A stretch of DNA of 64,000 bases from Tenacibaculum todarodis (GTDB taxonomy: Bacteria; Bacteroidota; Bacteroidia; Flavobacteriales; Flavobacteriaceae). A program made the position numbers and the translations under genes. The notes below the pieces were generated by a model. That model was not told the DNA's origin. It did no database searches and worked only from the letters and a program-made list of their open reading frames with translations. Each line of letters starts with the position of its first letter. Position 1 is the stretch's first letter. The stretch covers positions 2,668,001 through 2,732,000 of the forward strand of contig NZ_CP018155.1 in NCBI RefSeq assembly GCF_001889045.1, written 5' to 3'. Below are positions 5,312-32,600 of this stretch, one piece after another.

Positions 5312-7936
5312 TTAAAAAACATACTTAATGTTTAACAAAAAATATCTTGGAACTATTTTAAAACTTGTTTCATTTCTCTGGAAATCAGACAGAAATACAT
5401 CGTTAAATTTTGTTATATTAGAGAGGTTGTTAATTTTAAATCGGTAAGATAATTTACTCTTTTTAGGATTATAATTTAAGTTTATATTTGAAAACAAATA
5501 ATCTTTAGAATTTATAGAGTAATAATTGTTTTCAAACTTACACAACCAATTATTAGATATTTTTATACTTGTGTCTAAACTACTTTCTAAATAACTGTTA
5601 GTAGAAAACTGTTCATTAAATTTTCCTTTAGAATAGTTAAGTTGAAAACCAAATTTAAAATTTATTGGTAATCTAAAATATGTGGTTCCTTGCATTCTAT
5701 ATATTGAAGTGTAGTTTTCCACATTACTTGTTATATTGTTTATTATTACAGGATTATTTGACCATGATTGTTGAGTACTTAACTTTAAGCTACTAGATAC
5801 ATCTTTTAAGTATTTTGTTGCACTTAAATTGTAATTAGTTAGTTTTCCTCCATTTACTATAGTATATTGGTTAAAATTAACGTTGTCGGAAATTAAACTC
5901 TTTACACCATAACTTTTATCAGAGAAACTATGTAACAAAAAAGAATTAATTAAAAATTGTTTTTTGTAATTATTGAATGTATAGTAAAAACCAAAACTAT
6001 GATTGTTTGATTGTTGAATGTTATCGAAGCCTTTATTAAATGATCTATAATTTGTTAATATATAACTTTCAGTTAAATATTTTGAATTTGGTAAATTATT
6101 TTGAAAACCATAACTCACACCAAAATTACCAATTTTGGTTTTATTGGAATGCAAACTTATCTTAGGGTTTACAAAAAAGTATTGATTATTCTTTTTGTTT
6201 AGATTTATATAATTTTTCTCTATAGATAGAGAGCTTCTTACTTTGAATAGTGTTGAAATATTGTAGTTATACTTTCCTTTTAAAGAGATTTTCTGATTTC
6301 TGTAATTAACATGGTTAGATAATGAATCGATTTTATGGATATTGTCAAATCTAAAACTACTAATAATCTTATCTTTATCTACTGTTGCTGAAAATTCTAA
6401 TCCATACTCAGCCTTATTTTTTTTTGTAATTAACTCAGAGTTTAAACCATAATAAGTAAGAGGTGTGTTGTTTTTTTGATAAATTGTTAAAGCTCCATCA
6501 TTATTAAAAACGTCACTAAAAGTATTTGGTAGAATGCTATAATTCTGTTTGGTGTTATTTATGCCTAAATAAGCATATGCTAACAATAAGGTATTGTTAG
6601 AAATTTTTTTTGTGAAATTTAAGTGATTGAAAAAATTCTGTTTTTTTTCTTTTAATTTTTGAACCACTTTTTCATTATTAAAAATAAGATTTCCATTATT
6701 TTTAGTTGGGTTGTTTTCAAATATGAAATTATAGGTATAATACTCATCATTCTTTGATAAATATTTTAACTCAAATTCTGTAGCAAATGATATATCCTTA
6801 ATTTCAATTTTATTTTGTTCTATAAAAGAAATTGTTTCAGGTTCAATAAAATATTTAGTGATGTTATTATTTTGTTTTTCTATATCATCATAAGTAAAAT
6901 AGGTCAGATTTCTTAATTTTGTTTGCTTAGAGAGATTAGTGACAAAGCTTAGTGAGTTTAAAAAAGAATTATTAAAAACATCTTCATCATTAGAGAAATT
7001 TGAAGATGATAGATTGTCAATAGTTATAAGTTCGTTATTAGTTTTTTCATTTTTTTTATTAACATTAAATCCAGTAAAATTTATTGTTTTTTCATTTTTC
7101 ACTTGTGAAACAGCTGAGTTTCCAATACTATTTATGTTTGATAGATTAAAGAATTTTATTTTATTTTTCAGTAAACCAATATTTATAGTTGTATTAGTGC
7201 TATTATTTGTTCCAAAACCCAAATCTAAATTTCCAAACCAAACATTTTTTTTATCATTTTTAAGTTTTAAATTTAAAGCTATTTTTTCTGATTCCTGAAA
7301 ACTTTTTAACACAGGGTTATCTTCAAAGTTAGTAAGTAATTCTACTTCTTTAATAGTGCTTGCATCTAAGTTTTTAGTTAATAATTTGTATTTATCATCA
7401 AAAAGATCATCGCCTTCAACAAGTAATTTGTCAATAGCTTTACCATTAACTTTTATAGTACCATTTAAAGAAATTTCCATTCCGGGTATATTTTTAAGTA
7501 AGTCTTCTACAACATTTTCTGAACCATCTTTAAATGCCGATACTTTGTAAACAATTGTATCTTTTTTAACTTTTATCTTTTCCCAAGTTTCAAGCACAAC
7601 TTCCTTTAATATTTCGTTTTTCTCTTGTAATAAGAAATTAGTATTTATTGTACTTTTTAATATGTTAATGATATTTTTTTCTTCTTCAAAACCTAAACCA
7701 TTAGCAACAATAGTTAATGTTTTTAATTTATTCTGATTTATAGAAATTTGAAACTCCCCTTTTTCGTTAGAATATCCGTATGATATTAATTGGCCATTTC
7801 CGTAAATCATTATTGTAATATTAGAAAGGTTATTGTGTTCTTTATCAATAACCTTTCCTTTAATATTAATGTTTTGAGAAATTATGTAGTGTGTAACAAA
7901 AAATAATAGTAACAGAAAATTACCTTTTTTTATCAT
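5312..7936 (-). CDS. TonB-dependent receptor-like outer-membrane protein with carboxypeptidase-regulatory-like domain
   Basis: This 874-residue outer-membrane protein has a signal peptide (about 1-20, ending IISQ), a carboxypeptidase-regulatory-like beta-sandwich (about 22-105), a plug-like region (DTIVYKVSAFKDGSENVVEDLLKNIPG, VNGKAIDKLLVEGDDLF) and a long Asn/Ser-rich barrel ending in Phe (NIKYVF). The barrel resembles the outer-membrane beta-barrel group of TonB receptors. Its start lies inside the end of the GLPGLI gene (17-bp overlap), so the pair is translationally coupled. The substrate is unknown. The high Asn/Lys content is typical of AT-rich flavobacterial barrels. Confidence 0.8.
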   Translation of the reverse strand: MIKKGNFLLLLFFVTHYIISQNINIKGKVIDKEHNNLSNITIMIYGNGQLISYGYSNEKGEFQISINQNKLKTLTIVANGLGFEEEKNIINILKSTINTNFLLQEKNEILKEVVLETWEKIKVKKDTIVYKVSAFKDGSENVVEDLLKNIPGMEISLNGTIKVNGKAIDKLLVEGDDLFDDKYKLLTKNLDASTIKEVELLTNFEDNPVLKSFQESEKIALNLKLKNDKKNVWFGNLDLGFGTNNSTNTTINIGLLKNKIKFFNLSNINSIGNSAVSQVKNEKTINFTGFNVNKKNEKTNNELITIDNLSSSNFSNDEDVFNNSFLNSLSFVTNLSKQTKLRNLTYFTYDDIEKQNNNITKYFIEPETISFIEQNKIEIKDISFATEFELKYLSKNDEYYTYNFIFENNPTKNNGNLIFNNEKVVQKLKEKKQNFFNHLNFTKKISNNTLLLAYAYLGINNTKQNYSILPNTFSDVFNNDGALTIYQKNNTPLTYYGLNSELITKKNKAEYGLEFSATVDKDKIISSFRFDNIHKIDSLSNHVNYRNQKISLKGKYNYNISTLFKVRSSLSIEKNYINLNKKNNQYFFVNPKISLHSNKTKIGNFGVSYGFQNNLPNSKYLTESYILTNYRSFNKGFDNIQQSNNHSFGFYYTFNNYKKQFLINSFLLHSFSDKSYGVKSLISDNVNFNQYTIVNGGKLTNYNLSATKYLKDVSSSLKLSTQQSWSNNPVIINNITSNVENYTSIYRMQGTTYFRLPINFKFGFQLNYSKGKFNEQFSTNSYLESSLDTSIKISNNWLCKFENNYYSINSKDYLFSNINLNYNPKKSKLSYRFKINNLSNITKFNDVFLSDFQRNETSFKIVPRYFLLNIKYVF

Positions 7937-8741
7937 AAAATTCAGTTATTTCAAAGTTTTCAATAAATGAATCTTTTAGTTGAAGTTTTACATTTGACTC
8001 TGTGTCTGCAGAATTAAAATTTTCAGCAAAAACTCTACCACTATTAATAGAATTTAAATAAGCGTCTATTAAAAATTTTCGATATTCTTTTAAAGTAATC
8101 CATTTTTTATGAATTTGATTAGGCTGTTTTACAGGTTTTGCTATATTAATACTAGTAATTGCTGGGTATTTTAAATTTTTAAAATAAAAGTAGATCTCTT
8201 TTTTTGTGTCGTATGCTTCTAAAATTAAACCAGGTAAACCTTGTAGTTTCCAAGGACCATATTTTATTGCAATTTTTGGTGTGTACCAAGCAGTATAATT
8301 TCTTCCTCTAAACTTAGTAATTGCTTTAATGCATAAATAGTTTCCTATTTTTTTTGTTTCTTTTGTAATTTTCCATTTTATTTTAGGTTTTTTTTCTTTT
8401 ACATAGGTAAAACCTAAACCCCTACTATATAAACTGTCTTTGTTGAAATCTGTATAATACCTAAACCCATATTTATTAGTGGCTTTAGTTACCATATAAA
8501 CATTGTTTTTATCCTTAAAGGTTTGTTCTTCACGAATATTTCCTTTTTCTAATGAATCGTTTCTAGTTATATAAATTGATTCATCTTTGTTAAATACTAG
8601 AACAGATGTATAATCAATACCTATATCTGAACCCATTCCCATACTTTCTTTTTGTCCATAAAACACAACTCCTTTTTTATCTTGAGAAAATATTGTAATA
8701 GAGAAGTATAAGAAAAATATAATTATAGCTTTTTTTATCAT
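7920..8741 (-). CDS. GLPGLI family protein
   Basis: This 273-residue exported protein belongs to the GLPGLI family of Bacteroidetes, named for a motif that appears exactly here at 168-173 in KLQGLPGLILEAYD. A signal peptide covers about residues 1-19 (ending FSQ). Family members are commonly encoded beside TonB-receptor-like proteins, as here; their function is not established. The gene overlaps the receptor by 17 bp and lies downstream of the small secreted peptide gene. Confidence 0.9.
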   Translation of the reverse strand: MIKKAIIIFFLYFSITIFSQDKKGVVFYGQKESMGMGSDIGIDYTSVLVFNKDESIYITRNDSLEKGNIREEQTFKDKNNVYMVTKATNKYGFRYYTDFNKDSLYSRGLGFTYVKEKKPKIKWKITKETKKIGNYLCIKAITKFRGRNYTAWYTPKIAIKYGPWKLQGLPGLILEAYDTKKEIYFYFKNLKYPAITSINIAKPVKQPNQIHKKWITLKEYRKFLIDAYLNSINSGRVFAENFNSADTESNVKLQLKDSFIENFEITEFYDKKR

Positions 8742-9419: not shown

Positions 9420-9430
9420 ATTTAAAGAAA

Positions 9431-9531
9431 AAATTACTATTCCAAAAATTACTATTCCAAAAATTACTATTCCAAAAATTACTATTCCAAAAATTACTAT
9501 TCCAAAAATTACTATTCCAAAAATTACTATT
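9431..9531 (+). repeat. 15-bp tandem repeat, six full copies plus a partial seventh
   Basis: The unit AAAAATTACTATTCC repeats without error. The core TTACTATTCC begins at 9434, 9449, 9464, 9479, 9494 and 9509. A seventh copy beginning at 9524 breaks off after TTACTATT and runs straight into TAATG, whose ATG at 9534 starts the HTH gene. The unit length is a multiple of three and the frame upstream of the ATG is open back to a TAA at 9423, but it contains no start codon, so the array is leader and not coding. Confidence 0.95.
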
Positions 9532-9533
9532 TA

Positions 9534-9761
9534 ATGTTTTTATTTAAAACTACTGAAGAGTTAGAAAGTAACTTATTAAAAAGAATTAAAGAAGAAAGAG
9601 AAAAAATTGGGTTGTCACAATATGAGCTTGCTAAACGAATTGGTTTAGGGCAAAGCGCGTATCAAAAAATTGAAAAAGGAAAAACACGTTTAGATATGTT
9701 TCGTTTTTTAAAAATTACGCAAGCTTTAGGTGTTTACCCGAAAGATTTCTTTGACAATTAA
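9534..9761 (+). CDS. XRE/Cro-type helix-turn-helix protein
   Basis: This 75-residue protein is almost entirely a Cro/C1-type DNA-binding domain: LKRIKEEREKIGLSQYELAKRIG, then GLGQSAYQKIEKGKTRL as the recognition region and FLKITQALGV as the last helix. Such single-domain proteins act as repressors or antitoxin-like regulators; no toxin gene is adjacent. The ATG is the only reasonable start and is fused to the end of the 15-bp repeat array, so translation and expression may depend on copy number. It converges on the BTAD gene, with 6 bp between the stops. Confidence 0.85.
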   Translation: MFLFKTTEELESNLLKRIKEEREKIGLSQYELAKRIGLGQSAYQKIEKGKTRLDMFRFLKITQALGVYPKDFFDN

Positions 9762-9767
9762 AATAAA

Positions 9768-10571
9768 TTACCCAATCGCTTCAATTTCTTTTAATAATTG
9801 TTTAGTTTCTGGTAAAGGTGAAATGCCATATTCTTCTTCCAAAATTACTTCGCACTTCATATACGTTTTAATAGCTTGTGGTCTATTTCCTTTTGCTAAA
9901 TAACCACGCATTTGTAATCTGTAAGCATCTTCCCAAGTATTGTCTATTGCTAAAGCTGCTTGTGCTAAACGGATACTTTCAAGCGGATTTTCTGCCAATA
10001 AAATTTCTGCCAACGTAATATAAGCGCCTAAAATTAACAACTGACTTTTCTCCCGTTCTTCAGAAGACCAATCTTCGTAAATTCTATTGGGTAAAAAAAC
10101 ACCTTGGTACAATTCAATTGCTTTTTTGTAGGCTTTTTTGGCAATTTCTTTTTCTTCGGAAAGCGCTTGGTTTCCAATAATTATGTATTTTTCTAAAGCA
10201 TCAATATCTATCCAAACTTTATCTGTTGCTAATTGATAACTTACACCTTGTCTTAATATAAATTGTGGTTCCGTACGCGAAGGTCTATTAGGTTCTAAGG
10301 CTTTATTTATTCCGTGTAAAGCAACTTTAAAATCACGATCATTCCAATCTTCCCAAAGATTGTCCATAATTTTTTCTTTATGAAGCGCGTGTCTATGTCT
10401 GTTGGAAATTAAGTATTGTAAAAGCTGAATTGTTTTATCACGTCCAAATTCTTTAGAAGAAATTTTTTCTTCATTTCTCCATACCGAAAACTGCCCCAAC
10501 GTTTTAATTTTGATGGGAGCTTGCTCATAAAACTCTGTGAGCTGTTGTAGTTTGTCGGATAATTCAGACAT
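9768..10571 (-). CDS. BTAD-domain (SARP-like) regulator
   Basis: This is a 267-residue protein with an N-terminal winged-helix-like region (about 20-110: IKTLGQFSVWRNEEKI, then GRDKTIQLLQYLISNRHRHALHKEKIMDNLW) and a C-terminal helical-repeat domain (about 118-265) of the bacterial transcriptional activator type, including YRLQMRGYLAKGNRPQAIKTYMKCEVILEEEYGI. This architecture is that of SARP/AfsR regulators, better known in actinobacteria. It lies 6 bp after the coiled-coil gene and at the far end of the lipid block, so it may regulate that block; this is inference. Confidence 0.8.
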   Translation of the reverse strand: MSELSDKLQQLTEFYEQAPIKIKTLGQFSVWRNEEKISSKEFGRDKTIQLLQYLISNRHRHALHKEKIMDNLWEDWNDRDFKVALHGINKALEPNRPSRTEPQFILRQGVSYQLATDKVWIDIDALEKYIIIGNQALSEEKEIAKKAYKKAIELYQGVFLPNRIYEDWSSEEREKSQLLILGAYITLAEILLAENPLESIRLAQAALAIDNTWEDAYRLQMRGYLAKGNRPQAIKTYMKCEVILEEEYGISPLPETKQLLKEIEAIG

Positions 10572-10577
10572 AAAAAA

Positions 10578-11090
10578 TTATTTTTTACTGATTTTATCTA
10601 CTTTAGAATTCAGTTTTTTAATTTCTTTAGAAAGGGAATCTATAGATGTTTGAAGTTCATGATAATCTGCTCTAGAAGCTTTTTTCCATTGGTCAAATTG
10701 TACTTTCTCACTAATTTCTTCCCCTAAATTTTCTATCTGATCTTGGATTTGTTCCTGAATATTAGAAAACTGCTTCTTCGGATTTTTTATAGTTTCCTTT
10801 AAAAACTGAGGAGCAACATCTCTTACTGTTTTAAACATAGAAAAACTCTTTTGCAAAATACTTTCACGTTCTTCTTTGGGTTCATCTTTTGTAGCTTCAT
10901 TAGTTAACAACGCTAATTTTTCTTGCATAAAAACAAGTGCATCATTAAAGTCAGAAAATCGTTTTTCATCACCATCTTGTACATGACTTATTTTACCGCG
11001 CCACTGTACTTTTGCATCGCCGTTTTCTTTGTATATCTGTTGGTTAAAACGCACCATAAAAGACGCATTTTGATCTTGTTTTTTTGCCAT
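10578..11090 (-). CDS. Hypothetical coiled-coil protein
   Basis: I do not recognise a family. The 170-residue protein has no signal peptide. Residues about 10-65 form a compact part (FMVRFNQQIYKENGDAKVQWRGKISH). The rest is helical, ending in a heptad-rich, Lys/Asp/Ser-rich tail (LQTSIDSLSKEIKKLNSKVDKISKK). The amphipathic middle and coiled-coil tail resemble phasin-like granule-surface proteins in general style. That idea is strengthened only by the storage-lipid genes on the same strand. It lies between the hypothetical membrane protein and the BTAD regulator, with 12 and 6 bp spacing. Confidence 0.75.
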   Translation of the reverse strand: MAKKQDQNASFMVRFNQQIYKENGDAKVQWRGKISHVQDGDEKRFSDFNDALVFMQEKLALLTNEATKDEPKEERESILQKSFSMFKTVRDVAPQFLKETIKNPKKQFSNIQEQIQDQIENLGEEISEKVQFDQWKKASRADYHELQTSIDSLSKEIKKLNSKVDKISKK

Positions 11091-11102
11091 AATGTTATTT
11101 AT

Positions 11103-11633
11103 TTACCAACTTAAACGTTGAACTATTATTGTTCTTTCATCAGATAAAAAACCAACATAAAATGATTTGCTATCTTCAAGCAGGTTGTATTCGCTTATAA
11201 TTACCTGATTGTTGTCTTTAGAGAGTTTAATAGCTTTATCGAGTTCTCTTGAACTAATTTCTTTTATATCTTTTTTAAAACCTTTACTTTTTAAAATAAT
11301 AGGTAATTTTTTATAGAAATATTTGCTTACTTCTATTGTTGAAACAGAAGTGTAATCTCCAAAATGATCAGGAATACTTGCCGTCTTATACTTAATTTTT
11401 GAATATCTTGGTAATTCTATTGTTGTCACTTCTTTAAAATCTTCTCGATAAAATTCATCCGAAGGATAAATTCCTATATAAATAAAATATCCAACTATAA
11501 AAAAAGGTGTCAAAGACAATAACTTCCATTTTGAATTATATCCTTTTTTCTTGATATATCGATTAATTAAAAAAGACATTGAAATTAGGATTCCAATAAA
11601 AATTATGAAAAAGAGTATTAGGTATATTATCAT
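11103..11633 (-). CDS. Hypothetical membrane-anchored protein
   Basis: This 176-residue protein has two N-terminal membrane segments (about 4-24 and 38-56) and a soluble remainder of about 115 residues with no motif I recognise. It starts 2 bp after the gpsA stop and ends 12 bp before the coiled-coil gene, so all are probably in one transcript. Confidence 0.7.
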   Translation of the reverse strand: MIIYLILFFIIFIGILISMSFLINRYIKKKGYNSKWKLLSLTPFFIVGYFIYIGIYPSDEFYREDFKEVTTIELPRYSKIKYKTASIPDHFGDYTSVSTIEVSKYFYKKLPIILKSKGFKKDIKEISSRELDKAIKLSKDNNQVIISEYNLLEDSKSFYVGFLSDERTIIVQRLSW

Positions 11634-11635
11634 TC

Positions 11636-12637
11636 TTATCCTGGTTCTTTTTCAGAGCCAATTTCAATTTGTAATAAACCTTTAAAAGCTTGTTGTATAG
11701 TATTTCCTTCGTATAAAACCTTATACACTTCTTCAGAAATTGGCATTGGAACGTTATAATCTTTTGCTAATTCCATAACCACTTTTGCGGTTTTCACACC
11801 TTCAGCAACTTCGTTCATTTCTTCAATAATTTGGGCTAAACTTTTACCCGTTCCTAATTGAAAACCTACATGGTGATTTCTACTTTTATCGCTGGAACAT
11901 GTTGCTACCAAATCTCCCATTCCAGCCAAACCAGCAAACGTGCTTTTTTTACCGCCCATTGCAACACCTAAACGTGTTAGTTCTGCCAAACCACGAGTAA
12001 TTAATGCCGCTCTTGTGTTATCACCAGCATTTGCGCCATCACCCATTCCTGTTGCAATTGCCATAATATTTTTTAAAGCACCACCCAATTCACAACCAAT
12101 AACATCAGAATTTGTATAAACACGAAATAATCCTGAACTAAAAATAGGTTGTAGATTTTTAGCAATAGTGTCATCAACCATTGCAATTACAGCCGCTGCA
12201 GCTTTTCCAGAATGAATTTCCTTTGCTAAATTTGGACCTGTTAAAACACCGGCAGGATGTCCAGGTAATAATTCTTCAATAATTTCTGTCATTCGCATTT
12301 TTGAAGAAATCTCTAAACCTTTTGCTAAATTAACAATAGGAATCCAAGGTCTTATATGTGGTTTTGCTTGTTCTAAAACTGCTCTAAGATTTTGAGAAGG
12401 AATTCCCATTACAATTACATCGGCATTTTCTACGGCTTCTTTAATTGTATTTACCGCCTTTAAAGAACGCGTTAGTTTTGCATTTGGTAAATACCGTTGA
12501 TTGGTGTGATGCTCGTTTATTTCATCAACCGTTTCTTTTCTACGCGCCCAAATAGTTGCTTCCGCATTTTTTGCAACAATAGATGCTACTGTTGTTCCCC
12601 AAGAACCGCCACCAAGTATGCCTACTTTTAATTTCAT
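11636..12637 (-). CDS. gpsA: NAD(P)+-dependent glycerol-3-phosphate dehydrogenase
   Basis: GpsA reduces dihydroxyacetone phosphate to sn-glycerol-3-phosphate, the backbone of phospholipids and triacylglycerol. The 333-residue protein has the Rossmann motif GILGGGSWGTTVA (6-18), the TGPNLAKE substrate motif, and the conserved GALKNIMAIATGMGDG and GLAGMGDLVATC segments. It lies 124 bp downstream of the acyltransferase fusion on the same strand and would supply that enzyme's substrate. Length and motifs are normal. Confidence 0.96.
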   Translation of the reverse strand: MKLKVGILGGGSWGTTVASIVAKNAEATIWARRKETVDEINEHHTNQRYLPNAKLTRSLKAVNTIKEAVENADVIVMGIPSQNLRAVLEQAKPHIRPWIPIVNLAKGLEISSKMRMTEIIEELLPGHPAGVLTGPNLAKEIHSGKAAAAVIAMVDDTIAKNLQPIFSSGLFRVYTNSDVIGCELGGALKNIMAIATGMGDGANAGDNTRAALITRGLAELTRLGVAMGGKKSTFAGLAGMGDLVATCSSDKSRNHHVGFQLGTGKSLAQIIEEMNEVAEGVKTAKVVMELAKDYNVPMPISEEVYKVLYEGNTIQQAFKGLLQIEIGSEKEPG

Positions 12638-12761
12638 AAGTTATATTTTTAAAGACATTAATTATCACAAAAGAATGTGTTAATGTATTGTTTTCGATAT
12701 AAAAATCGAATTAAAGGTACTGTTTTTTATGGATTTTTACTTTTACCGAAATAAAAAAAGA

Positions 12762-15700
12762 TTAGTTTTCTAACGCAACTTTATACAAATCTCTCACTTC
12801 TTCTACATACGTATCTATATGTTTTACTTTCCATTCAGAAGTATCAACAGGATCTAAAATTACAACTTCAATGTGTGTTGGTTTAAATACTGAGCTCCCT
12901 TTTGGCATTGCCATATATGCGTTTTTTATTACAATAGGAATTATAGGAACACCTGCTGCCATTGCTAAATGAAAAGCACCTTTTTTAAATTTCCCTAACT
13001 CTTTACTTCCGCTCCTTGTACCTTCAGGAGCAATAACTACGGAAGTTCCATTTTTAATAACTTCTGCAGCATCTTTCATAGATTTTAGTGCATTTTTTTT
13101 ATTTGAACGATCAATAAAAATTGCACCCATTGCTTTAAATAAAGGTCCAAAAGGAGTCATTTCTAACTCTTTTTTTGCAACTCCAGCCACATCTTTTCTT
13201 AATAATTTTGATATGATAAAAAAGTCTGCCGAAGATTGATGATTAAAACAAAAAACGGCTGGTCTATAATCTTCTAAATTGTTTTTTCCTTTAACTGCAA
13301 TATCCAATCCGGCAAATTTTGTTCCCAAATCTCCAATGCTTGCAATGGTTGTGTTTATAGCTTCTTTTTTAGATAAAGTAAAAGCTCCACGAATAATTCC
13401 TTTTACTGCTGAAGGATATAAACTTGCGGCTGCTAAACCAGTTCTAAACCTATTTACAATTGGTTGTCCGTTTGTTTCATCGAAGCGTAAAATTGGCCAA
13501 CCGCTTTCAAAAGCAACTTGAGACAAACGACTATCTGGATTAACAGCATGTGGTTTCCCAACAATTTCTAACAACGGATAATCATCAAAACTATCTGTAT
13601 AAAAGAAACTTTTAGATAAATCTATATCGTTTTGTTTTGCAAACTTTTTTCCAGCGTTAGCTTTTCCTTCGCCCCAACACATTTCTTTAATTTGACCTGT
13701 AAATTTACCACGATTTACTTCCATTTCTGTACAATAAATATCAGAAATACCCAGCTCATCTGCAATTGGTTTTATTTGATAAACAGTGGCTGCTGAGATA
13801 ATTACTATTTTATGTCCTTTTTCTAAATGCGAAGCGATTAAAGTACGTGCTTCTGGATAAATTGTGTCAACTAAATGTTTTTTATATACTTCTTGTCCTA
13901 GTGTTGTAAAGTCTTTTTCTTTGATTCCTTTTACACCAAGAGCCGATAGTTTTGTGAGTACTTCAAAATCTCTATTTCCTGCTCCGTAAAGTAAAATTGT
14001 TGCAAATTGAGACAGCAATTCTTTAGTAGTAGTTTTACCACTTAATAAACGAGATTGTACAAATTTTTTGGCAGAAAAATCATTGATTAATGTTCTGTCT
14101 AAATCGAAAAATGCTGCAATATGAGCACCTTCTTCTTGTTCTAGAATTCTATTAGATATCGTATCCAAATCAGAGCCAGGAACCACTTCTTCTTCGGTTT
14201 CTATTGCTGTAATATTCAATAATGATTTTACCTCAAGTTTTTGAAGTTCATTTAAATGATTAGTGAATTCATCTAATTCTTGCATCCAACTTTCTAAACC
14301 ATCATAATCTATTTTTCCTTCAACAGGAATTAGCTTTGCATTTTTTGCAAAGCGTAATGAGTTTGTTAAAAACGGTTTAGAAACACTATCTAATCTTGAG
14401 ATACGAGATTGCCAATGCAACTCCTTTCCTTTAAATAAACACAAGTCTAAGAATTCAGAATATATAAAATCATCTTCTAAATCCCAACTATTTAAAGTAT
14501 GGCAAACAACTTTGTTTGCTTCAAGATAAATTAACAATAATCCTTTAGAAACAAATAATTCTTGCTTCTTTAAAAGTGTATTTATATCTCCATTTGGGTC
14601 CGTAATTATCTTTCTCCAGTTTTTATCGAATAAGTTTAATTCGTCTTCAATTTCTGTTGAAAATTTAGGTTTGTTTGTGTAGAAAAATTCAAATTTAAAT
14701 GTGTTACGCAAGTGCATAATTTCTTCCCAAAAATGAAGAATTCTATCTGTTGATGTATCGTCTTTAATTTTTATCAAAGCCATTTCAATAAAGGCTCTGT
14801 GATATAAATGACTTGCCGACATGTTTGCATAATAGGTTGCCGACAAATATTCATTTGGAGCTAAACTATATTGTGTTTTTCTCCCAGCTTTACTTTTTTG
14901 AATTATATGTGCGCCAAGTAATAAATTCAGTGCTTTTTGTACAGTAACATCTATTTTGTTTCCTCGGTCTAACAACACATCTTCTTTGCGTTGTTCTATG
15001 TAATTCATCAACTTTATTACGTTGATTTCTATTTCTTTTTTAGTGAGCGCAAAGTTGTTTAAAAGGGCGTTACAAACTAAAGAAACTGTAGTTACTGGTG
15101 TAATTGTATTTGCTTTGTGAATTAATTCAAAAGCAAAACGAGGTAACGTGTTTTTATCAGCATAACTGTCTTCTTCCATATCTGGAATAATAGCATTTGT
15201 ATGTTGAGAATTTTCTACAGGTTCTCCAAAACGAATGGAAGCTCTACCGTAACGATGTCCTAAATTTTTTAAATATTTTCCAAACAAAGCAAGGTTTTCA
15301 GATTTTTTGTCTGTTCCTTTTCCTTCTTCGGTCATTTCTTTCACGTCGGGAATTAAGTCATACACAATAGAAACAGGAACGTATTTTATTGGACGAGAAC
15401 TTGCTTTTTCTCCTTCCATAATGTATTTTAAAATCCCCATTTGTGGATAGACGATTTTACCTGTTCTTGAGCGAGTTCCTTCAATATTCCACGTTAAATG
15501 ATCTCCGTTTTCAATAAAACAAGAAATATAATGGCGTAAAGACGCTTTGTAAACGGCATCATCTTTAAAACTTCTGCGTAAAAAGATTAAACCAGAATTT
15601 TTCCCCAATTGCTTTACACCAGGCATTGCCAAATTTATACCTCCAAAAAAGTAGGGAATTGGCATTCCGTAGCGGTGTAAGGTTGTTACTAAAACAACAG

Positions 15701-15998
15701 TGTCTAAATAGGTTTTATGAGTCAAAATAAATGCGACAGAATTTTTACGCATTAATTTCATCAACTTTTTAATTTCCTGACGATCTACATCAATTTTATC
15801 TTCATAAGCTTTAGAAAGCATATATTCAAAACCCTTTAAGGTAGCCATATTTGCTATTGGGTTTTGTTCTGCATACATTTCCGTAATACAAAGTTCTGCT
15901 TCTTTTTGAACTTCTTCTAAAGATTGTTTACGTTGTAAAGCAATTCCTTTAAGTTCGTCTTGAAACTTTGGTTGGTTAAAGATTTTTTCTATAGACAT
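12762..15998 (-). CDS. PlsB-HAD-PlsC triple-domain acyltransferase/phosphatase
   Basis: This 1078-residue protein joins three enzyme modules. Residues about 80-265 form a PlsB-like glycerol-3-phosphate acyltransferase with HKTYLD at 94-99, FLRR at 139-142 and IEGTRS at 172-177. Residues about 265-600 match the long C-terminal part of PlsB. A HAD-IB phosphatase follows at about 625-830, with FDLDRT (nucleophile Asp632, Asp634, Thr636), ISAAT near 734 and YTDSFDD (Asp805/806). A PlsC-like acyltransferase ends the protein, with NHQSSAD (His920, Asp925), IDRS at 962 and PEGTRSG from 991. In mycobacteria plsB2 and a HAD-PlsC gene are neighbours; here they are one polypeptide. It could in principle turn glycerol-3-phosphate into phosphatidate or diacylglycerol. 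All catalytic motifs are intact. Confidence 0.9.
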   Translation of the reverse strand: MSIEKIFNQPKFQDELKGIALQRKQSLEEVQKEAELCITEMYAEQNPIANMATLKGFEYMLSKAYEDKIDVDRQEIKKLMKLMRKNSVAFILTHKTYLDTVVLVTTLHRYGMPIPYFFGGINLAMPGVKQLGKNSGLIFLRRSFKDDAVYKASLRHYISCFIENGDHLTWNIEGTRSRTGKIVYPQMGILKYIMEGEKASSRPIKYVPVSIVYDLIPDVKEMTEEGKGTDKKSENLALFGKYLKNLGHRYGRASIRFGEPVENSQHTNAIIPDMEEDSYADKNTLPRFAFELIHKANTITPVTTVSLVCNALLNNFALTKKEIEINVIKLMNYIEQRKEDVLLDRGNKIDVTVQKALNLLLGAHIIQKSKAGRKTQYSLAPNEYLSATYYANMSASHLYHRAFIEMALIKIKDDTSTDRILHFWEEIMHLRNTFKFEFFYTNKPKFSTEIEDELNLFDKNWRKIITDPNGDINTLLKKQELFVSKGLLLIYLEANKVVCHTLNSWDLEDDFIYSEFLDLCLFKGKELHWQSRISRLDSVSKPFLTNSLRFAKNAKLIPVEGKIDYDGLESWMQELDEFTNHLNELQKLEVKSLLNITAIETEEEVVPGSDLDTISNRILEQEEGAHIAAFFDLDRTLINDFSAKKFVQSRLLSGKTTTKELLSQFATILLYGAGNRDFEVLTKLSALGVKGIKEKDFTTLGQEVYKKHLVDTIYPEARTLIASHLEKGHKIVIISAATVYQIKPIADELGISDIYCTEMEVNRGKFTGQIKEMCWGEGKANAGKKFAKQNDIDLSKSFFYTDSFDDYPLLEIVGKPHAVNPDSRLSQVAFESGWPILRFDETNGQPIVNRFRTGLAAASLYPSAVKGIIRGAFTLSKKEAINTTIASIGDLGTKFAGLDIAVKGKNNLEDYRPAVFCFNHQSSADFFIISKLLRKDVAGVAKKELEMTPFGPLFKAMGAIFIDRSNKKNALKSMKDAAEVIKNGTSVVIAPEGTRSGSKELGKFKKGAFHLAMAAGVPIIPIVIKNAYMAMPKGSSVFKPTHIEVVILDPVDTSEWKVKHIDTYVEEVRDLYKVALEN

Positions 15999-16014
15999 TT
16001 AGACGTTTGTTTGA

Positions 16015-17187
16015 CTAATTATAATTAGGTATTGATATTAAATCTTTTAGGATATCACCTTTTTTTCGTTCCCAAAATTTTGGGAAAAACATATTTTCTA
16101 ATTTAGTAATAAAACCTTTTGGTTTTCTTCCTTGTGTGTTTTCAATTAAAGCATTTGCTACAGTTACTAAAACTGATGCATTTGCTCCCATTCCCATATG
16201 ACTTCCGTAAACCTCTACGTTTTTAATGTTTTTTCGCATTGTTTCTGCCTCTAAACAATGTTTCCACGGTACTAATCCATCTGTTTTAGTGTAAATACAA
16301 GTTACTGGTACTTTGGGTATTTCTTCTAGTTCTTTTAAAAACTTGTCGTTACGTTCACGCAAAGTTTTTCCTCGTAAAAATTCTAATACGCGTACTAAAG
16401 GAGTTTGCATATTGTTTACTCCCCAAACAGGAGAACCAATTGTAACTAGTTGCTCTACTTTATCTGGGTAACGATTGGCAATTATTTTAGCAAATATTCC
16501 TCCGCCAGACCAACCTACTAAACTAACCTTTTCTCCATGCTTTTCATAGATTTCATCTAAACGTTCTACCAGTTTTGGCAAGTATTTAGAGTTAATCATA
16601 TTTACACCTAATTCCCATTTATAAGTTTTAAAACCTACTGATTTTAAGTATTTACGAACAAATTTAGTAGAGCTATCGTTTCCTAAATATGGAGGCATTA
16701 ATAAAACGGGTTTGTTGTTTCCTTGTTTTTTCTTGGGAATTAAATAGTACAAACCAAACATGGTACTCCATTCTACTAAAGAACGTGTTTCTAAAAACAT
16801 GTTGAAAGGTGGAGGAGCAGGAATTGTTTTATTTATTTTTATAATTTCTTCTCTAAAATGTGCAACAATTGGAGAAGAAATATCTTTTTTTAAGTTCTTC
16901 GGAAGCGTTTCTAAATTAATGCTTTCTAAAACTAAAACAAGTGTTATATAATCTCTATCTGGCCCAAATTCCTCACAAATATTTATGCAATTATTAGTTA
17001 GTTTTATTAATGTTTCCTTATTAAATTCATCATTCTTAATAGATTTTAAGATGAATTTTTCAAAAGGATGGTCTTCAAATTTTTTAGTAACTAGTTCTTT
17101 CGCTTTTGTAAGGGAATACTCATTTATCATAGCAACTTTAATTGCCATTTTAGTAAATGTAGTATATAGGGTTTTATTATTTTCCAT
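16015..17187 (-). CDS. Alpha/beta hydrolase related to PHA synthase/lipase fold
   Basis: This 390-residue cytoplasmic protein has a helical N-terminal region (1-155) and an alpha/beta hydrolase core. The nucleophile elbow is GWSGG with Ser227, and a full triad can be proposed with Asp303 (KTDGLVPW) and His330 (GSHMGM). The PPYLGNDSSTKFVRKYLKSVG segment recalls polyhydroxyalkanoate synthases, but those have Cys as nucleophile, so this is more likely an esterase or lipase. It sits 16 bp before the acyltransferase fusion and 3 bp after the monoacylglycerol-lipase-like gene, in the same transcript by spacing. The M. tuberculosis plsB2-plsC locus also has a carboxylesterase (lipQ) nearby. Confidence 0.8.
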   Translation of the reverse strand: MENNKTLYTTFTKMAIKVAMINEYSLTKAKELVTKKFEDHPFEKFILKSIKNDEFNKETLIKLTNNCINICEEFGPDRDYITLVLVLESINLETLPKNLKKDISSPIVAHFREEIIKINKTIPAPPPFNMFLETRSLVEWSTMFGLYYLIPKKKQGNNKPVLLMPPYLGNDSSTKFVRKYLKSVGFKTYKWELGVNMINSKYLPKLVERLDEIYEKHGEKVSLVGWSGGGIFAKIIANRYPDKVEQLVTIGSPVWGVNNMQTPLVRVLEFLRGKTLRERNDKFLKELEEIPKVPVTCIYTKTDGLVPWKHCLEAETMRKNIKNVEVYGSHMGMGANASVLVTVANALIENTQGRKPKGFITKLENMFFPKFWERKKGDILKDLISIPNYN

Positions 17188-17190
17188 TTG

Positions 17191-18132
17191 TTATTCTGAG
17201 TATTCTTTTGATTGAATGTGGGAATTCAACCAATTTAAAAAATCTTGTTCTACTTCTTTCTTGTTGGTTTCATTCAACATTTCATGTCTTCCACCTTCAT
17301 ATAATTTTAAAGTTAGGTCGTTAATACCTGCTTTAATGTATTGACTTGCCACTTTTTGCACTCCTTTTCCCATTTCTCCAACGGGATCTTTATCACCCGA
17401 AAATATATAAATAGGAATATTTTTTGGAGTAGCTTTAAACGTTTCTAAATCGTTAATTTTTTTACTTCCTTTTAAAATGTCAATAAACATACTGATTGAA
17501 AAATCTTCAATTCTTAAAGGATCTTTTGCAAATAAATCTACTTCTTTTTCATCTCTACTAATCCAATCTACTTGTGTTCTGTTGGGTTTAAATTTTTTAT
17601 TAAATTCAGAGAAAAAGACAGATTTTAAGGTGTTACTGCTTCTTTTTCTACCTTTAAAAAACTTTACCATATTAGCGCCAGCAAGTCCAATAGAACCTAA
17701 ACTTTTAATGTAACTTCCAGTTCCAGAAAGTATCAACGCTTTTATATTGTCACCGTGTTCTGTTATATATTGTCTACTTAATAAAGAACCCATACTGTGG
17801 CCAAAAAGGATGATTTTTTCCTTCGGATATTCTTTCTGAATAATTTTAGTTAAATCATACATATCATTAACTGCATCTTCAAAATAATTTTCACCTTCAT
17901 AAACACCTAAATATTCTTTTGATTTAGTTGAATTTCCATGAATACGATGATCATTTGCATAAACATCAAAACCTTGTTGTTGTAAAATTTCTGCAATACG
18001 TTTATATCTTCCAGCATGTTCACCAACTCCATGTGCTATTTGCACAATACCTTTTGGATAAGCTACTTTCCAGCGGTAATAAAATATTTTTTCACCGTCT
18101 TTTGCAGTAAATGTATGTGTGCTAAAACTCAT
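17191..18132 (-). CDS. Monoacylglycerol lipase/lysophospholipase-like hydrolase
   Basis: This 313-residue alpha/beta hydrolase of the monoglyceride lipase type would release fatty acid from monoacylglycerol or lysophospholipid. It has the oxyanion-hole motif HGVGEHAGRY (34-43), the nucleophile elbow GHSMG with Ser113, an acid residue in SGDKDPVG, and the catalytic His in GGRHEMLNE. Its ATG overlaps the stop of the WS/DGAT gene by one base (TAATG), a sign of translational coupling. It has no signal peptide, so it acts inside the cell. Confidence 0.87.
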   Translation of the reverse strand: MSFSTHTFTAKDGEKIFYYRWKVAYPKGIVQIAHGVGEHAGRYKRIAEILQQQGFDVYANDHRIHGNSTKSKEYLGVYEGENYFEDAVNDMYDLTKIIQKEYPKEKIILFGHSMGSLLSRQYITEHGDNIKALILSGTGSYIKSLGSIGLAGANMVKFFKGRKRSSNTLKSVFFSEFNKKFKPNRTQVDWISRDEKEVDLFAKDPLRIEDFSISMFIDILKGSKKINDLETFKATPKNIPIYIFSGDKDPVGEMGKGVQKVASQYIKAGINDLTLKLYEGGRHEMLNETNKKEVEQDFLNWLNSHIQSKEYSE

Positions 18133-19967
18133 TATCTATTTAAAAATTCTGATAAAATTGAAATCAATTTATCTTGGTGTTTTTTATCTCCTTCAAACTT
18201 CATTCTTCCTTGTATAACTAATTCTTGTAGTAAGAATTTTTGCTGATGTAAAGCAATTAAATTTGTATCATCAATACTAAATGATGCTTTTGCTTTTCTT
18301 TCTTTCTTCTTTTTTAAAACACCTTCATCTTGCGTAAAATCTAAACTCCAAAAATGAGATTCTTCTTTAGAAGTTACTTCAAATTGATACAAACCTTTGT
18401 GTTTTTTTACAATTTCAGCATTATTTTTTATAAAGCGTTTAAATGCAGAGAAAAATGCTGAACTTGCTAAGGTTGCTTTCGCAATTTCTTTCTCCTTTTG
18501 CTTTCCTCTTTTCTGAATAATTTTTTCTAACTTATTGGCTTCTTCTCTAATGAAACGAGAAAATTTACCAGCATCAGGCATTGTTTTAGCATCGGAAGTT
18601 GTTGTTATACTTACAGTTCCGTTATAGCTAAAAGCAGCTATAATTAAACCAAAACCATCTACAACGGGTGTTAAACCAAAAACCCCAACTGTTTTATGTC
18701 CTTTTAAATATAAGGCTGTTTGTGGTCCAGGAACATTAGTAATTGTTACATTAAAAGGTGGTCTGTGTAATTCTTTAATATTGTATTTGCTATAGATTCC
18801 TGAAGCTAAATTTGCCAAGCCAAAAGGAACACTTTCAGCCATTTTCATTAAACTTTTTGCACCAACAGCTTTATGGCGAGATTTTCCCACTTCTGTTTGT
18901 TCTTGTATGTATTCTAATCGCTCAATTGGGTCTTCTATGTGTGTTCCTATTTGAACCAACATATTAGAAATCTTATTTCCATAATTTTGTTTTTCGCCTT
19001 TTACTCGGATTGAAATAGGAACATTTGCAACCAATGGTAAAGATGGTAATTGATCTTTTTCAATTAAATATCTTCTAATAGCTCCGGCGCAAATATTTAC
19101 TATAACATCGTTAATGGTTACGCCCATAATTTTACGAAGCGAGTTTATTCTATCAAAAGATAAAATTGCGGTTCCCCAAGTTCTCTTTGGAGAAATTGAA
19201 CCATTAAAGATGGTTTTTGGAACTGAAAAGGATTTTTTATCAAAAGGCTTATTTCCAACCACTGCTTTTTTTGCTTTCTGTTGCATAACTGATACAGCAG
19301 CTTCTCCTACCAGTTTTGGTATTTTAAGTGGGGCTTTAAAAAACTTATAGGAGCTTTTTAATAATAAACTTAATTCTTCTGGAAGCGGTTCTGGTTCAAA
19401 AGGTTTTGGTTTTGGAATTGGTTTTGTACTGTCGGCTTTGTTTTTATCAAACAACATTCCCATTAATCCAACTCCAGAGGCACCATCAATCATAACATGG
19501 TGTACTTTTGTAAGTATAGCAACAGAGCCTTTTGGGATTTGAGAAATAGTATCCAAACCTTCTATAAATGTAATAGACCAAAGTGGTCTTCTTAAATCTA
19601 AGGAAGCACTAAAAACGGTTGCTGTTGTGTCTCTTAATGTTTTCCAATCTGCTGGATCGGGTAATTTTATTCTGTTTAAATGTAAATCGAGCTCAAAATT
19701 TGGATCGTCTACCCAATATGGATAATCTAAATCGAACGGAACATTTAATAACCGTTGTCTAAACTTTGGCATTAAATGTAATTTAGAAGCAATGGTGTCT
19801 TTAAAGTCATCAAATTTTAAAGAATCTTCTACAATAATTAAAGTTCCAATATGCATTGGATTAAGTGCGCTTTCTGCATATAAAAATGCAGCATCTTGCC
19901 CAGTAACTTGTTTTATAGAGCTGTCTAAAGCATCATCCAATAAATCTTTAATTACTTTTTTTGTCAT
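18132..19967 (-). CDS. Wax ester synthase/diacylglycerol acyltransferase with C-terminal SCP2-like domain
   Basis: WS/DGAT enzymes transfer acyl groups from acyl-CoA to fatty alcohol or diacylglycerol, making wax ester or triacylglycerol at the inner membrane. The 611-residue protein has the active-site motif HHVMIDG at 156-162, the PLW motif at 128-130 and TINDVIVN in the C-terminal half. The usual enzyme is about 450-480 residues. The extra C-terminal part (about 505-611) has the pattern of an SCP2 sterol/lipid carrier domain: FEVTSKEESHFWSLDF, then ASFSIDDTNLIALHQQKF and IQGRMKFEGD. It is the first gene of the tight lipid cluster. Confidence 0.92.
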   Translation of the reverse strand: MTKKVIKDLLDDALDSSIKQVTGQDAAFLYAESALNPMHIGTLIIVEDSLKFDDFKDTIASKLHLMPKFRQRLLNVPFDLDYPYWVDDPNFELDLHLNRIKLPDPADWKTLRDTTATVFSASLDLRRPLWSITFIEGLDTISQIPKGSVAILTKVHHVMIDGASGVGLMGMLFDKNKADSTKPIPKPKPFEPEPLPEELSLLLKSSYKFFKAPLKIPKLVGEAAVSVMQQKAKKAVVGNKPFDKKSFSVPKTIFNGSISPKRTWGTAILSFDRINSLRKIMGVTINDVIVNICAGAIRRYLIEKDQLPSLPLVANVPISIRVKGEKQNYGNKISNMLVQIGTHIEDPIERLEYIQEQTEVGKSRHKAVGAKSLMKMAESVPFGLANLASGIYSKYNIKELHRPPFNVTITNVPGPQTALYLKGHKTVGVFGLTPVVDGFGLIIAAFSYNGTVSITTTSDAKTMPDAGKFSRFIREEANKLEKIIQKRGKQKEKEIAKATLASSAFFSAFKRFIKNNAEIVKKHKGLYQFEVTSKEESHFWSLDFTQDEGVLKKKKERKAKASFSIDDTNLIALHQQKFLLQELVIQGRMKFEGDKKHQDKLISILSEFLNR

Positions 19968-29214: not shown

Positions 29215-29601
29215 ATGAAAACAATTCCCGTTACTTGTGCAATCATTCATTTTGATGATAAAGTTTTAGCTGTTCAAAGAAGTAAAACAATGAAACTTCC
29301 TTTGAAATGGGAATTTGCAGGAGGAAAAATTGAAAAAGGAGAAACAGAAATTGATTGTACTAAAAGAGAAATATTTGAGGAATTAAATATTCAAATAGAA
29401 GTAAAAGAGAAATTAACACCTGTTATTCATCAATATTCTGATTTTAAAATTAAACTGATTCCCTTTATAGTTAAATATATTTCAGGTGAGTTAATTTTAA
29501 AAGAACATTCTGACTTTGTTATAGTTAATAAAGAAGAATTGACTAATTTAGATTGGGCAGAAGCGGATTTACCTATTTTAAAAGAATTTTTAGCATTATG
29601 A
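29215..29601 (+). CDS. NUDIX hydrolase (MutT-like)
   Basis: This 128-residue protein cleaves nucleoside diphosphates linked to another moiety, probably a (modified) nucleoside triphosphate. The Nudix box runs from Gly37 to Ile59: GGKIEKGETE, then REIFEELNI, with metal-binding Glu at 52, 55 and 56. The Gly normally before the last residue is Asn58. Its stop overlaps the ATG of the helicase gene (ATGA), so the two products are probably made together. That coupling is the best clue to its job. Confidence 0.9.
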   Translation: MKTIPVTCAIIHFDDKVLAVQRSKTMKLPLKWEFAGGKIEKGETEIDCTKREIFEELNIQIEVKEKLTPVIHQYSDFKIKLIPFIVKYISGELILKEHSDFVIVNKEELTNLDWAEADLPILKEFLAL

Positions 29602-32600
29602 ATCAAGGAATTTACGAAGAATTAATTACACAATTAGTATCTGAAAAATTAAATGAACTTGATAAAGATAAATTCTTTCTAAAGAAAACTTCAATTGATA
29701 AGGAAGAAGCTTCGAATGTTTTATCTAAGCATTTAGCAAAAACTTTAAAACATGCTTTTCAACTTATAAAAGGTAAAGCTGAATTACAAATTGAAATTGC
29801 TAACAAAATAATTAAATTACTAAAGGACGAGTTAAATAAACAAGAATTTAATGATGATTTAGTAAGTATCGAAGGTGAGATTTTAAAGGCAGTATTTTCA
29901 AAAACTGATGCGCACTTTTCAAATTTAGATTTAAGATTAAAAGAAATAACTCCTTACACAAGATTAACACAGAGTGAGTTATTTACTGGTGGAAACGGTG
30001 GTTTATCTCTAGAAAGTGAACTAAAAAAAGAGATTCTTTCCTCAAACGAAATATATCTTCTTGTTTCTTTTATAAAATTTAAAGGGATTATTATTCTTGA
30101 AAAAGAGTTACGAGAATATACAGAACGTGGTGGAAAACTAAAAGTAATTACCACGACATATATTGGAGCAACAGATTATAAAGCTATTCAACTACTTTCT
30201 AACCTTCCTAATACAGAAGTCAAAATATCTTACAATACAAGTAATGAAAGGTTACACGCAAAAGCATATCTTTTTTATAGAAATACTGGCTTTCATACTG
30301 CATATATTGGCTCTTCTAACTTTTCTAGGTCAGCTTTAACAGATGGTTTAGAGTGGAATTTAAAAGTTACAACCAAAGAAGTAAGTCACATAATTGATAA
30401 ATTCAACAAGACATTTGATTCTTATTGGAAGAGTGATGATTTTGAATTATTTGATGATTCTAAACACAAAGAGAAACTTCAAAATGCCTTAAAACAAAGT
30501 AAATTTAGTAAACCTTATGAAAACGCTACAGCTTTGTTTGATATTAAACCTTTTCCTTATCAAAAAGAGGTATTAGAAAAACTAGAAGTAGAAAGAACGG
30601 TTCACAATAGATTTAGAAACCTTGTAGTTGCAGCAACTGGAACTGGAAAAACAGTTATTTCTGCGTTTGATTACAAACGTTTTAAACAAAATAATAAGTC
30701 TGCAAAACTTCTATTCCTTGCACATAGAAAAGAAATTATCCAAAAATCATTATCTACTTTTCAAGGCGTTTTAAGGAATAATAATATTGGTGAATTATGG
30801 GTTGACGGAATGGTTCCTGATAATTTTGAATTTGTATTTGCTTCTGTACAATCTGTCAAAAACAAGTTTGAACAATATAACTTAACTCCTGATTATTATG
30901 ATTATATAATAATCGATGAATGTCATCACCAAACCGCTAATAGTTATAGAGAAATAATTAACTATTTTAAACCAAAGATTTTGCTAGGCTTAACTGCTAC
31001 ACCTGAACGAATGGATGGTGGAGACATTTTAGAAGATTTTGATAATAAAATTGCTGCAGAAATTAGATTACCTGAAGCAATGAATCGAAAATTACTTTGT
31101 CCTTTTCAATATTTCGGAATAACAGATAGTATAGATTTAACAAATGTAAGTTGGGCTAGAGGTAAATATGTCGCAAGTGAATTAACTAGTCTATATACCG
31201 AAAATGACAGAAGAGTTAGAGAAATTATTGACGCATTAGATAAATACACAAAAGATATAAATGAAGTTAGGTCTTTAGGTTACTGTGTTTCTATGGAACA
31301 TGCTAAATTTATGGCTAAAAAATTCACATTAGCAGGATTAAAAGCCGATTATTTAACAAGCATAAATAGTACAGACAGAATTCAAATTCGTCAGAAACTT
31401 GAAAAAAAGGAAATTAATTATCTATTTGTAGTCGATATGTTTAACGAAGGTATTGATATTCCTGAAATTGATACTGTTCTATTTTTAAGGCCAACTGAAA
31501 GCTTGACAGTCTTTTTACAACAACTTGGAAGAGGACTGAGACTTCACGAAGATAAAGACTGCTTAACAGTTTTAGATTTTGTCGGAAATTCTAAACCTGA
31601 ATATAATTTTGAAAGTAAGTTTAGAGCTTTAATCGGTAAAACTAATACAACCGTTAAAAAAGAAATCGAAGACGATTTCCCACATCTTCCTTTGGGTTGC
31701 TCAATTATTTTAGAGAAAAAATCAAAAGAAACAATTCTTAAAAATATATCAGCAGCAACATCTTTAAATAAAAATAAATTAATTCAAAGAATACAACAAT
31801 TTCAAAACGACACTAATTTACCATTAACATTAAGTAATTTTATTGAATTTTACAACATTCCTGTTCAATCAATCTACAAAAGAGGTAGCTGGAAACGGTT
31901 ATGTCAATTAGCAGGAAAAATAGAAAATTTCAATTCTGAAAATGAAAAATCCATTGTTTCCGCTATTTTAAACAAATGGTTATCTACAAATTCATTAAGT
32001 TATTTCTCTTTTATTCTAAAAATTGCAAAACAGAATTTTAAAGTAACAATTTCAGATTTAAATGAAAATGAAAAAGCGATGCTATTAATGTTGCATTATG
32101 ACGTTTGGCAGAAAGAAGGAGATTTTGATTCTTTAGAAAAAAGTATACATCATATTGGTGTTAATCCTGTTTTAATTGAAGAAATAAAGGAGATTTTGGA
32201 GTTTTTAATTGATAAAACAGATTTCAAAGAATTACCTATCCAACTTCCGTACGAGCAGCCTTTAAAATTGCATAGTCGTTACACGAGAGACCAAATTTTA
32301 GCAGCTTTTAAATTTAGTAGTTTTGAAAAAAAATCATCTAATAGAGAGGGAACAGCATTAAATAAAAATTTAAATACTGAAATTCTATTTATCAATCTTA
32401 TAAAATCAGAAGAAAACTTTTCACCTACAACAATGTATGATGATTATGCGGTAAATGAATTATTATTTCATTGGCAAACTCAAAACTCTGCAAGACCAGA
32501 TATAGGAAAAGGATTGTCTTATATAAAACATCAAGAAGAAAATAAAAGAATCTTACTCTTTGTTCGCGAAAAAGCAAAAGATGAATTTGGTAATACAAAA

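Follow-up and report, generated by a model that had tools for sequence, protein, structure and literature searches.

A conserved and repeatedly lost neutral-lipid gene cassette of Flavobacteriaceae, most likely for triacylglycerol bodies

Does a flavobacterium carry a dedicated set of genes for making, coating and breaking down storage fat? This question is raised by a block of genes in a 64,000-nucleotide stretch (hereafter the window; positions 2,668,001 to 2,732,000 of contig NZ_CP018155.1) of Tenacibaculum todarodis, whose genome is complete and consists of one contig of 3.02 Mb. The block lies on the minus strand and starts with a gene for a 611-aa wax ester synthase/diacylglycerol acyltransferase (WS/DGAT) with a C-terminal SCP-2 domain (18132..19967). 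This is followed by genes for a 313-aa alpha/beta hydrolase of the monoglyceride-lipase type (17191..18132), for a 390-aa hydrolase consisting of an N-terminal helical stretch and a lipase-like alpha/beta-hydrolase domain with a GWSGGG nucleophile motif (16015..17187), for a 1078-aa PlsB-HAD-PlsC fusion that joins a glycerol-3-phosphate acyltransferase, a HAD-IB phosphatase and a 1-acylglycerol-3-phosphate acyltransferase (AGPAT) (12762..15998), and for a 333-aa GpsA of the actinobacterial type (11636..12637). The spacings between these five core genes are, in this order, a 1-base overlap, 3 bp, 16 bp and 124 bp. A first-pass annotation of the window had given these genes with coordinates, same-strand layout and spacings that agree exactly with the open reading frame (ORF) positions and with the Pfam and NCBIfam domains, and had interpreted them as a locus of neutral-lipid synthesis and turnover, which is still the best reading in view of the genes, their intact motifs and their co-occurrence. 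The SCP-2 domain was absent from its description, and the limits it set (11636..19967) proved too narrow: three more genes follow on the same strand, two of which belong to the conserved unit. These two encode a 170-aa phasin-like protein, with a predicted N-terminal beta hairpin followed by long helices, which is a candidate lipid-body coat protein (10578..11090), and a 267-aa BTAD-domain (SARP-like) regulator (9768..10571; PF03704, E 4.6e-15). The locus thus contains seven conserved minus-strand genes spanning 9768-19967. The third gene, orf176 (11103..11633), is not counted among them; it has no assigned family, gave no Pfam or NCBIfam match and no BLAST match in either the 22 other genus and family loci or the 59 flavobacterial loci described below, and lies outside the gene set conserved in relatives.

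How widespread is this unit? GTDB representative contigs were scanned with two short peptide patterns of the 390-aa hydrolase, so that this gene is present in the scanned loci by construction, and the list of loci is a lower bound. The scan yielded at least 60 loci. One is a distant relative in a Ramlibacter metagenome-assembled genome, where the neighbouring genes resemble, judging from their translations, fatty-acid oxidation genes. The other 59 are from Flavobacteriaceae, with Polaribacter, Tenacibaculum, Aquimarina, Lutibacter, Winogradskyella, Lacinutrix, Oceanihabitans, Ulvibacter, Patiriisocius, Croceivirga, Allomuricauda, Dokdonia and Bizionia among the genera. According to tblastn searches, 54 of these 59 loci have the five core genes as a group, either complete or truncated at a contig end, and in the remaining five one or two core genes are missing where the contig ends. 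Because the five genes occur together in so many loci elsewhere, their grouping is not due to chance. Furthermore, the order WS/DGAT, lipase, 390-aa hydrolase, fusion and gpsA recurs in 22 other loci of the genus and family wherever the contig is long enough. In these 22 loci the 170-aa gene and the BTAD gene are located either downstream of gpsA or about 4 kb ahead of the WS/DGAT gene, in which case the intervening 4 kb contain a second phasin-like gene and small related ORFs as well as genes for a TetR-type regulator and an ABC1 kinase. Over the 59 loci, gene order was of type 1 in 29 and of type 2 in 26, and undecidable in four.

The accessory genes are conserved to different degrees. Detected by tblastn, the 170-aa gene was found in 55 of the 59 loci, the BTAD gene in 54, the second phasin-like gene in 49, and the TetR and ABC1 genes in 39 each. 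The BTAD gene adjoins the 170-aa gene in 54 of the 59 loci, with a median gap of 7 bp. The TetR and ABC1 genes are absent from several loci that reach well past the second phasin-like gene (e.g. L118-L120), and are therefore not fixed parts of the cassette. In T. todarodis the second phasin-like gene and an adjacent 94-aa ORF are located at about 2,651,220-2,652,125 of the genome (L163, 10859-12128), some 16 kb to the left of the window, and the sole match to TetR is a 39% paralogue. Two further observations concern individual carriers. In one relative (G051) the WS/DGAT gene is broken into two frames (L041, 9637-11471) and the other cassette genes are intact, and in Polaribacter filamentus ATCC 700397 cassette genes occur on two contigs (L101 and L151), perhaps representing two copies.

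Do these genes also come and go together? A WS/DGAT was found in 15 of 58 genomes of the window's genus, a sample that takes in Polaribacter species, and in 9 of 299 genomes of the family. The 170-aa protein occurs in 14 of the 58 genus genomes, all among the 15 with a WS/DGAT, and in none of the other 43; the one genome with a WS/DGAT and no 170-aa match (G041) is 76% complete and has its WS/DGAT on a 7.1-kb contig. In the family sample the 170-aa protein is found in the same nine genomes as the WS/DGAT. The hypergeometric p value of this overlap, which ignores shared ancestry, is about 1e-12 for the genus and about 2e-17 for the family. PlsB (PF19277) follows the same pattern, being present in the same 14 genus genomes as the 170-aa protein and in none of the 43 genomes lacking a WS/DGAT, so that membranes in this genus can evidently be made without PlsB. 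The strong form of the second phasin-like gene (best E below 1e-69) also occurs in these 14 genomes. Another 25 genus genomes gave weak matches to its protein (E 1.9e-22 to 5.8e-4), almost all of them due to the lysine-rich tail, and the strongest of these, in G048, corresponds to a true partial cassette.

What, then, might the unit do? The most likely answer is a lipid-body cassette which makes triacylglycerol and coats and mobilises the resulting bodies. What the sequences themselves show is which genes are present, that their catalytic motifs are intact and their order conserved, that they strictly co-occur and that partial relics are left after loss. GpsA would reduce dihydroxyacetone phosphate to glycerol-3-phosphate, to which the PlsB and PlsC domains of the fusion would add two acyl chains from acyl-CoA; the HAD domain would then take off the phosphate to give diacylglycerol, all within one polypeptide. 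The WS/DGAT-SCP2 protein would transfer a third acyl chain to diacylglycerol, yielding triacylglycerol. The phasin-like proteins could form the coat of the droplet, the two hydrolases would convert the stored lipid into monoacylglycerol and glycerol, and control may be exerted by the BTAD regulator together with, in many relatives, TetR and the ABC1 kinase.

The enzymes have the domains and residues expected for these predicted roles. The WS/DGAT scores 390.3 bits against TIGR02946 (cut-off 309.95) and 175.4 bits against PF03007 (cut-off 23.6; E 2.5e-51), PF06974 and PF02036 (SCP2) are also over their cut-offs, and the catalytic motif HHxxxDG is present in all 52 sequences compared, including that of the window (HHVMIDG, residue 156). 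The 313-aa hydrolase is monoglyceride lipase-like by family score (PF12146, Hydrolase_4; 169 bits, cut-off 27; E 1.4e-49) and by its GHSMG nucleophile motif, found in 57 of 57 sequences; monoacylglycerol is its predicted substrate. In the fusion protein PF19277, PF12710 and PF01553 are over cut-off, and the two HX4D motifs, the two EGTRS motifs and DxDxT are all intact. Full-length fused ORFs were recovered by script in 46 of the 59 flavobacterial loci. The PlsB part scores 444.3 bits against the actinobacterial PlsB2 model NF002886/PRK03355, which is under the cut-off of 721 but far higher than the 168 obtained with the E. coli-type PlsB model. As for the 390-aa hydrolase, its N-terminal helical stretch lies outside most structural matches and its closest named record is from Tenacibaculum aquimarinum K20-16 (96%). 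Its profile matched 27 of 395 genomes in a phylum sample, at full length only in the window's own genome and elsewhere as short alpha/beta-hydrolase stretches. Viral contigs gave no confirmed relative of this hydrolase, and a viral origin was dropped.

Is triacylglycerol the product? The Kennedy-pathway partners favour triacylglycerol over wax ester. Many bacterial WS/DGATs prefer alcohols, and the best PDB match of the protein, 7nxg, is named O-acyltransferase WSD (the second, 6chj, Diacylglycerol O-acyltransferase), so that the enzyme might instead join fatty alcohols to acyl-CoA for wax-ester storage, with the Kennedy genes as mere neighbours. We consider this unlikely, given the tight linkage to GpsA and PlsB-HAD-PlsC, which are expected to make glycerolipid; moreover, no fatty acyl reductase match was found among the cassette proteins scanned, a genome-wide search for reductases not having been made. 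The SCP-2 fusion, a lipid-transfer domain, is a feature not seen in plasmid WS/DGATs, since none of the matches from the plasmid collection extended over 80% of the query. It could deliver a different acceptor, such as a hydroxy-carotenoid, a quinol or a hydroxylated lipid, which the WS/DGAT would then acylate. However, such a role would leave the full glycerolipid route and the monoglyceride-type lipase unexplained, and appears less probable still than wax-ester storage. These and the other alternatives discussed below partly overlap with the triacylglycerol-body reading, and the likelihoods we attach to them need not sum to one.

The cassette GpsA deserves separate attention. It scores 495.8 bits against NF009098/PRK12439, above the cut-off of 436, and its gene (11636-12637) is the sole PF07479 gene found in the complete genome of the window strain. 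Of the 14 other genus genomes with a WS/DGAT, 13 have the usual flavobacterial GpsA alongside the cassette form, and the incomplete G041 has the usual one alone. Since other carriers keep both, the cassette GpsA appears to have replaced the housekeeping GpsA in the window lineage. In a GpsA tree with few, long-branched outgroup sequences, the cassette proteins group with those of Nonomuraea and Mycobacterium paragordonae (98/95) and are distant from the usual flavobacterial GpsA. That the only GpsA found sits in the cassette could be taken to mean that the locus serves ordinary phospholipid synthesis, as an acyl-CoA route to phosphatidic acid with the WS/DGAT as overflow. PlsY (PF02660) gave no match in the window genome either, but the Bacteroides control likewise gave none, so this result is uninformative. 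On the other hand, the 43 genus genomes in which both WS/DGAT and PlsB matches are lacking argue against such a role, the fused phosphatase would be expected to consume the phosphatidic acid, and lipases and coat-like proteins are linked to the same genes. We therefore regard a primary phospholipid role as about as improbable as acylation of another alcohol.

Are the phasin-like proteins plausible droplet coats? The 170-aa protein matches Phasin (PF05597) with E 0.0011 and 19.5 bits, below the cut-off of 28.8; within its family, matches at E 0.01 were obtained to Phasin in 4 of 45 members, to WXG100 in 12 and to NPV_P10 in 10. It has no PDB relative at E 0.001 (one match at 0.081) and no match in the plasmid collection. 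Among 22 members of the second family, HHH_5 matched 17, Apolipoprotein 12 (best E 3e-9) and Phasin, at E 0.01, six (best E 1.7e-6); the window genome's own copy scores 18.8 bits against Phasin, and its HHH_5, Apolipoprotein and Phasin scores are all below the curated cut-offs. An NCBIfam match of the second protein to the phasin PhaH (E 4.1e-15; 56.6 bits, cut-off 250) was discounted as probably due to composition, because unrelated lysine-rich proteins match the same part. As matches of helical, lysine-rich proteins can be compositional, the proposed coat role rests mainly on gene linkage. This linkage has support from outside the family. Three plasmid records carry a relative of the 390-aa hydrolase, and in two, both from Caballeronia, it adjoins the WS/DGAT gene or lies one gene away from it. 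On the plasmid of Caballeronia sp. Sq4a, three consecutive genes encode this relative (34%, E 9e-37 in a small search), a protein annotated as phasin family and a WS/DGAT; unlike in the flavobacterial cassette, no Kennedy genes are annotated within the 15-kb stretch, and the WS/DGAT match stops before the SCP-2 part. On the C. grimmiae plasmid the WS/DGAT match is in three pieces.

The third record, a Novosphingobium plasmid, has the hydrolase relative near a PhaE gene, which, with the weak phasin matches, might suggest that the phasin-like proteins serve polyhydroxyalkanoate (PHA) granules and merely travel with the cassette. However, PhaC (PF07167, PhaC_N) was found in none of the 58 genus genomes, with a positive Caulobacter control, so that in the genus these proteins have no PhaC-based PHA system to serve, and they are strictly tied to the WS/DGAT. 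PHA granules were ruled out on this ground, and we consider this the least probable of the alternatives.

A bolder, and distinctly tentative, proposal concerns the second coat-like protein, which combines phasin-like helices, a lysine-rich linker and a helix-hairpin-helix end. It is conceivable that it tethers droplets to the nucleoid, within a self-contained lipid-droplet organelle cassette of marine Flavobacteriaceae whose dedicated coat proteins would fall outside the curated phasin families. In that case PhaF of PHA granules would be a convergent counterpart, as would rhodococcal MLDS. The droplet proteins TadA/HBHA and MLDS of Actinobacteria, likened here by description only, provide precedents for lysine-rich tails or DNA binding: the lysine-rich C-terminal repeat region of HBHA is reported to be required for its part in lipid inclusions (PMC6176652), and MLDS is reported to tie droplets to DNA (PMC5504291). 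The flavobacterial protein differs from both by its helix-hairpin-helix match in 17 of 22 members.

How does the cassette compare with known systems? The first-pass annotation had pointed to a similar neighbourhood in mycobacteria, and this comparison is real: Rv2482c-Rv2485c of M. tuberculosis are described as neighbouring genes for a WS/DGAT, PlsB, HAD-PlsC and an esterase (PMC10699116), and a plasmid of M. paragordonae carries WS/DGAT, alpha/beta hydrolase, HAD-PlsC and PlsB genes together. In addition, the rhodococcal atf9-plsB-plsC operon, which has an AGPAT-HAD fusion, was predicted to encode all four Kennedy activities, with HAD proteins proposed as the phosphatases (PMC4850399). WS/DGAT, PlsB and HAD-PlsC are thus encoded together in both groups. 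In contrast to the actinobacterial operon, however, PlsB and HAD-PlsC form one protein here (1078 aa in the window) instead of being encoded by separate genes, the WS/DGAT has an SCP-2 domain, and the unit includes GpsA, phasin-like and BTAD genes, joined in many relatives by TetR and ABC1. Galvan et al. 2023 (PMC10351704) have already published WS/DGATs of Bacteroidota, flavobacterial ones included, that have SCP-2 and lie beside an AGPAT or hydrolase, and they deal with the same enzyme in many of the same genera. For Bacteroidota, the available text of that paper does not describe a fusion with PlsB, nor GpsA, phasin-like proteins, regulators or relics, and a phasin is mentioned only once in the main text, for a scaffold from Pseudomonadota. 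Among the matches listed in searches of the open-access literature, no paper dealt with the flavobacterial cassette as a whole, with the PlsB-HAD-PlsC fusion or with lipid-body proteins of flavobacteria. What seems new is the complete cassette, with its three-domain fusion and its coat-like proteins, of which one ends in a putative DNA-binding part, and, in the window strain, with a GpsA that is the only one found.

Several points weigh against the triacylglycerol-body reading. Firstly, all activities, the product and the droplet itself are predicted from sequence, and WS/DGATs are able to take other acyl acceptors. Secondly, the similarity of both putative coat proteins to phasins stays under the family cut-offs, unrelated coiled-coil models match more members of the 170-aa family than Phasin does, and the structure model of the 170-aa protein is poor (pLDDT 54.7). 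Thirdly, no GpsA besides that of the cassette was found in the window strain, so that at least this gene must also serve phospholipids. Finally, transcript of the rhodococcal atf9-plsB-plsC operon was lower under nitrogen limitation and the operon was judged to be housekeeping (PMC4850399), for which reason a storage role is not certain.

Where does the cassette come from? The first-pass annotation had suggested that it might be a transferred or convergent, actinobacterial-type set of genes. A recent transfer from actinobacteria is not supported, in view of the distribution over many Flavobacteriaceae genera, the single site in Polaribacter and the relics; nor does the WS/DGAT tree, which has many long branches and in which the Halioglobus row is a partial 307-aa frame, name a donor. 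The Polaribacter site lies between a photolyase-like gene and udk, both named from sequence. Among genomes without a WS/DGAT, three keep a lone cassette-type gpsA at this site (among L158-L162), a fourth has a cassette-type gpsA beside udk, and a fifth has kept the second phasin-like, TetR and ABC1 genes. A marker gene was present in 28 of the 87 loci examined in this survey, several of which represent one genome fetched twice. In the GpsA tree the four lone relic genes (group 98/93) fall within the cassette GpsAs (98/98). Since some relatives without a WS/DGAT keep pieces at its chromosomal site, sequence comparison indicates that the cassette is old and often lost, and not a recent arrival. 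It may nevertheless have come, in the distant past, from an actinobacterium-like donor; of the forms compared, namely PLSDB records and curated models, the actinobacterial ones are nearest to its GpsA, PlsB and HAD-PlsC.

The surroundings of the locus show some further features. A perfect 15-base tandem repeat of 6.9 copies (9429-9531) lies between the BTAD gene and its neighbour and reads on the plus strand as a repeated LLFQK frame. A gene on the plus strand (9534-9761), convergent with the BTAD gene, encodes a 75-aa regulator that appears XRE-like from its sequence. Further to the left, 5312-8741 holds genes for a protein with a CarboxypepD_reg-like domain and for Porph_ging, weaker relatives of both being located directly left of the window. 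At 29553-32732 a helicase-type protein with PLD-like nuclease, ResIII and DUF3427 domains is encoded, possibly a defence protein.

We conclude that the locus represents a real, conserved and repeatedly lost neutral-lipid cassette, most likely for triacylglycerol bodies, and that it is the organised unit, more than the single enzyme family already published, that is the news. Internal fat storage is a trait rarely discussed for flavobacteria. Should the reading be correct, marine flavobacteria such as Polaribacter, Winogradskyella and Dokdonia, several of which are known from algal blooms and polar seas, could bank carbon as fat, which would bear on marine carbon storage and on survival between blooms. 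The cassette would also offer candidate droplet coat proteins from beyond the Actinobacteria that can be put to the test, together with an unusual enzyme whose single chain may carry out three glycerolipid-synthesis steps. Finally, the sole GpsA of the window strain points to a storage cassette that has taken over a housekeeping step in one lineage.

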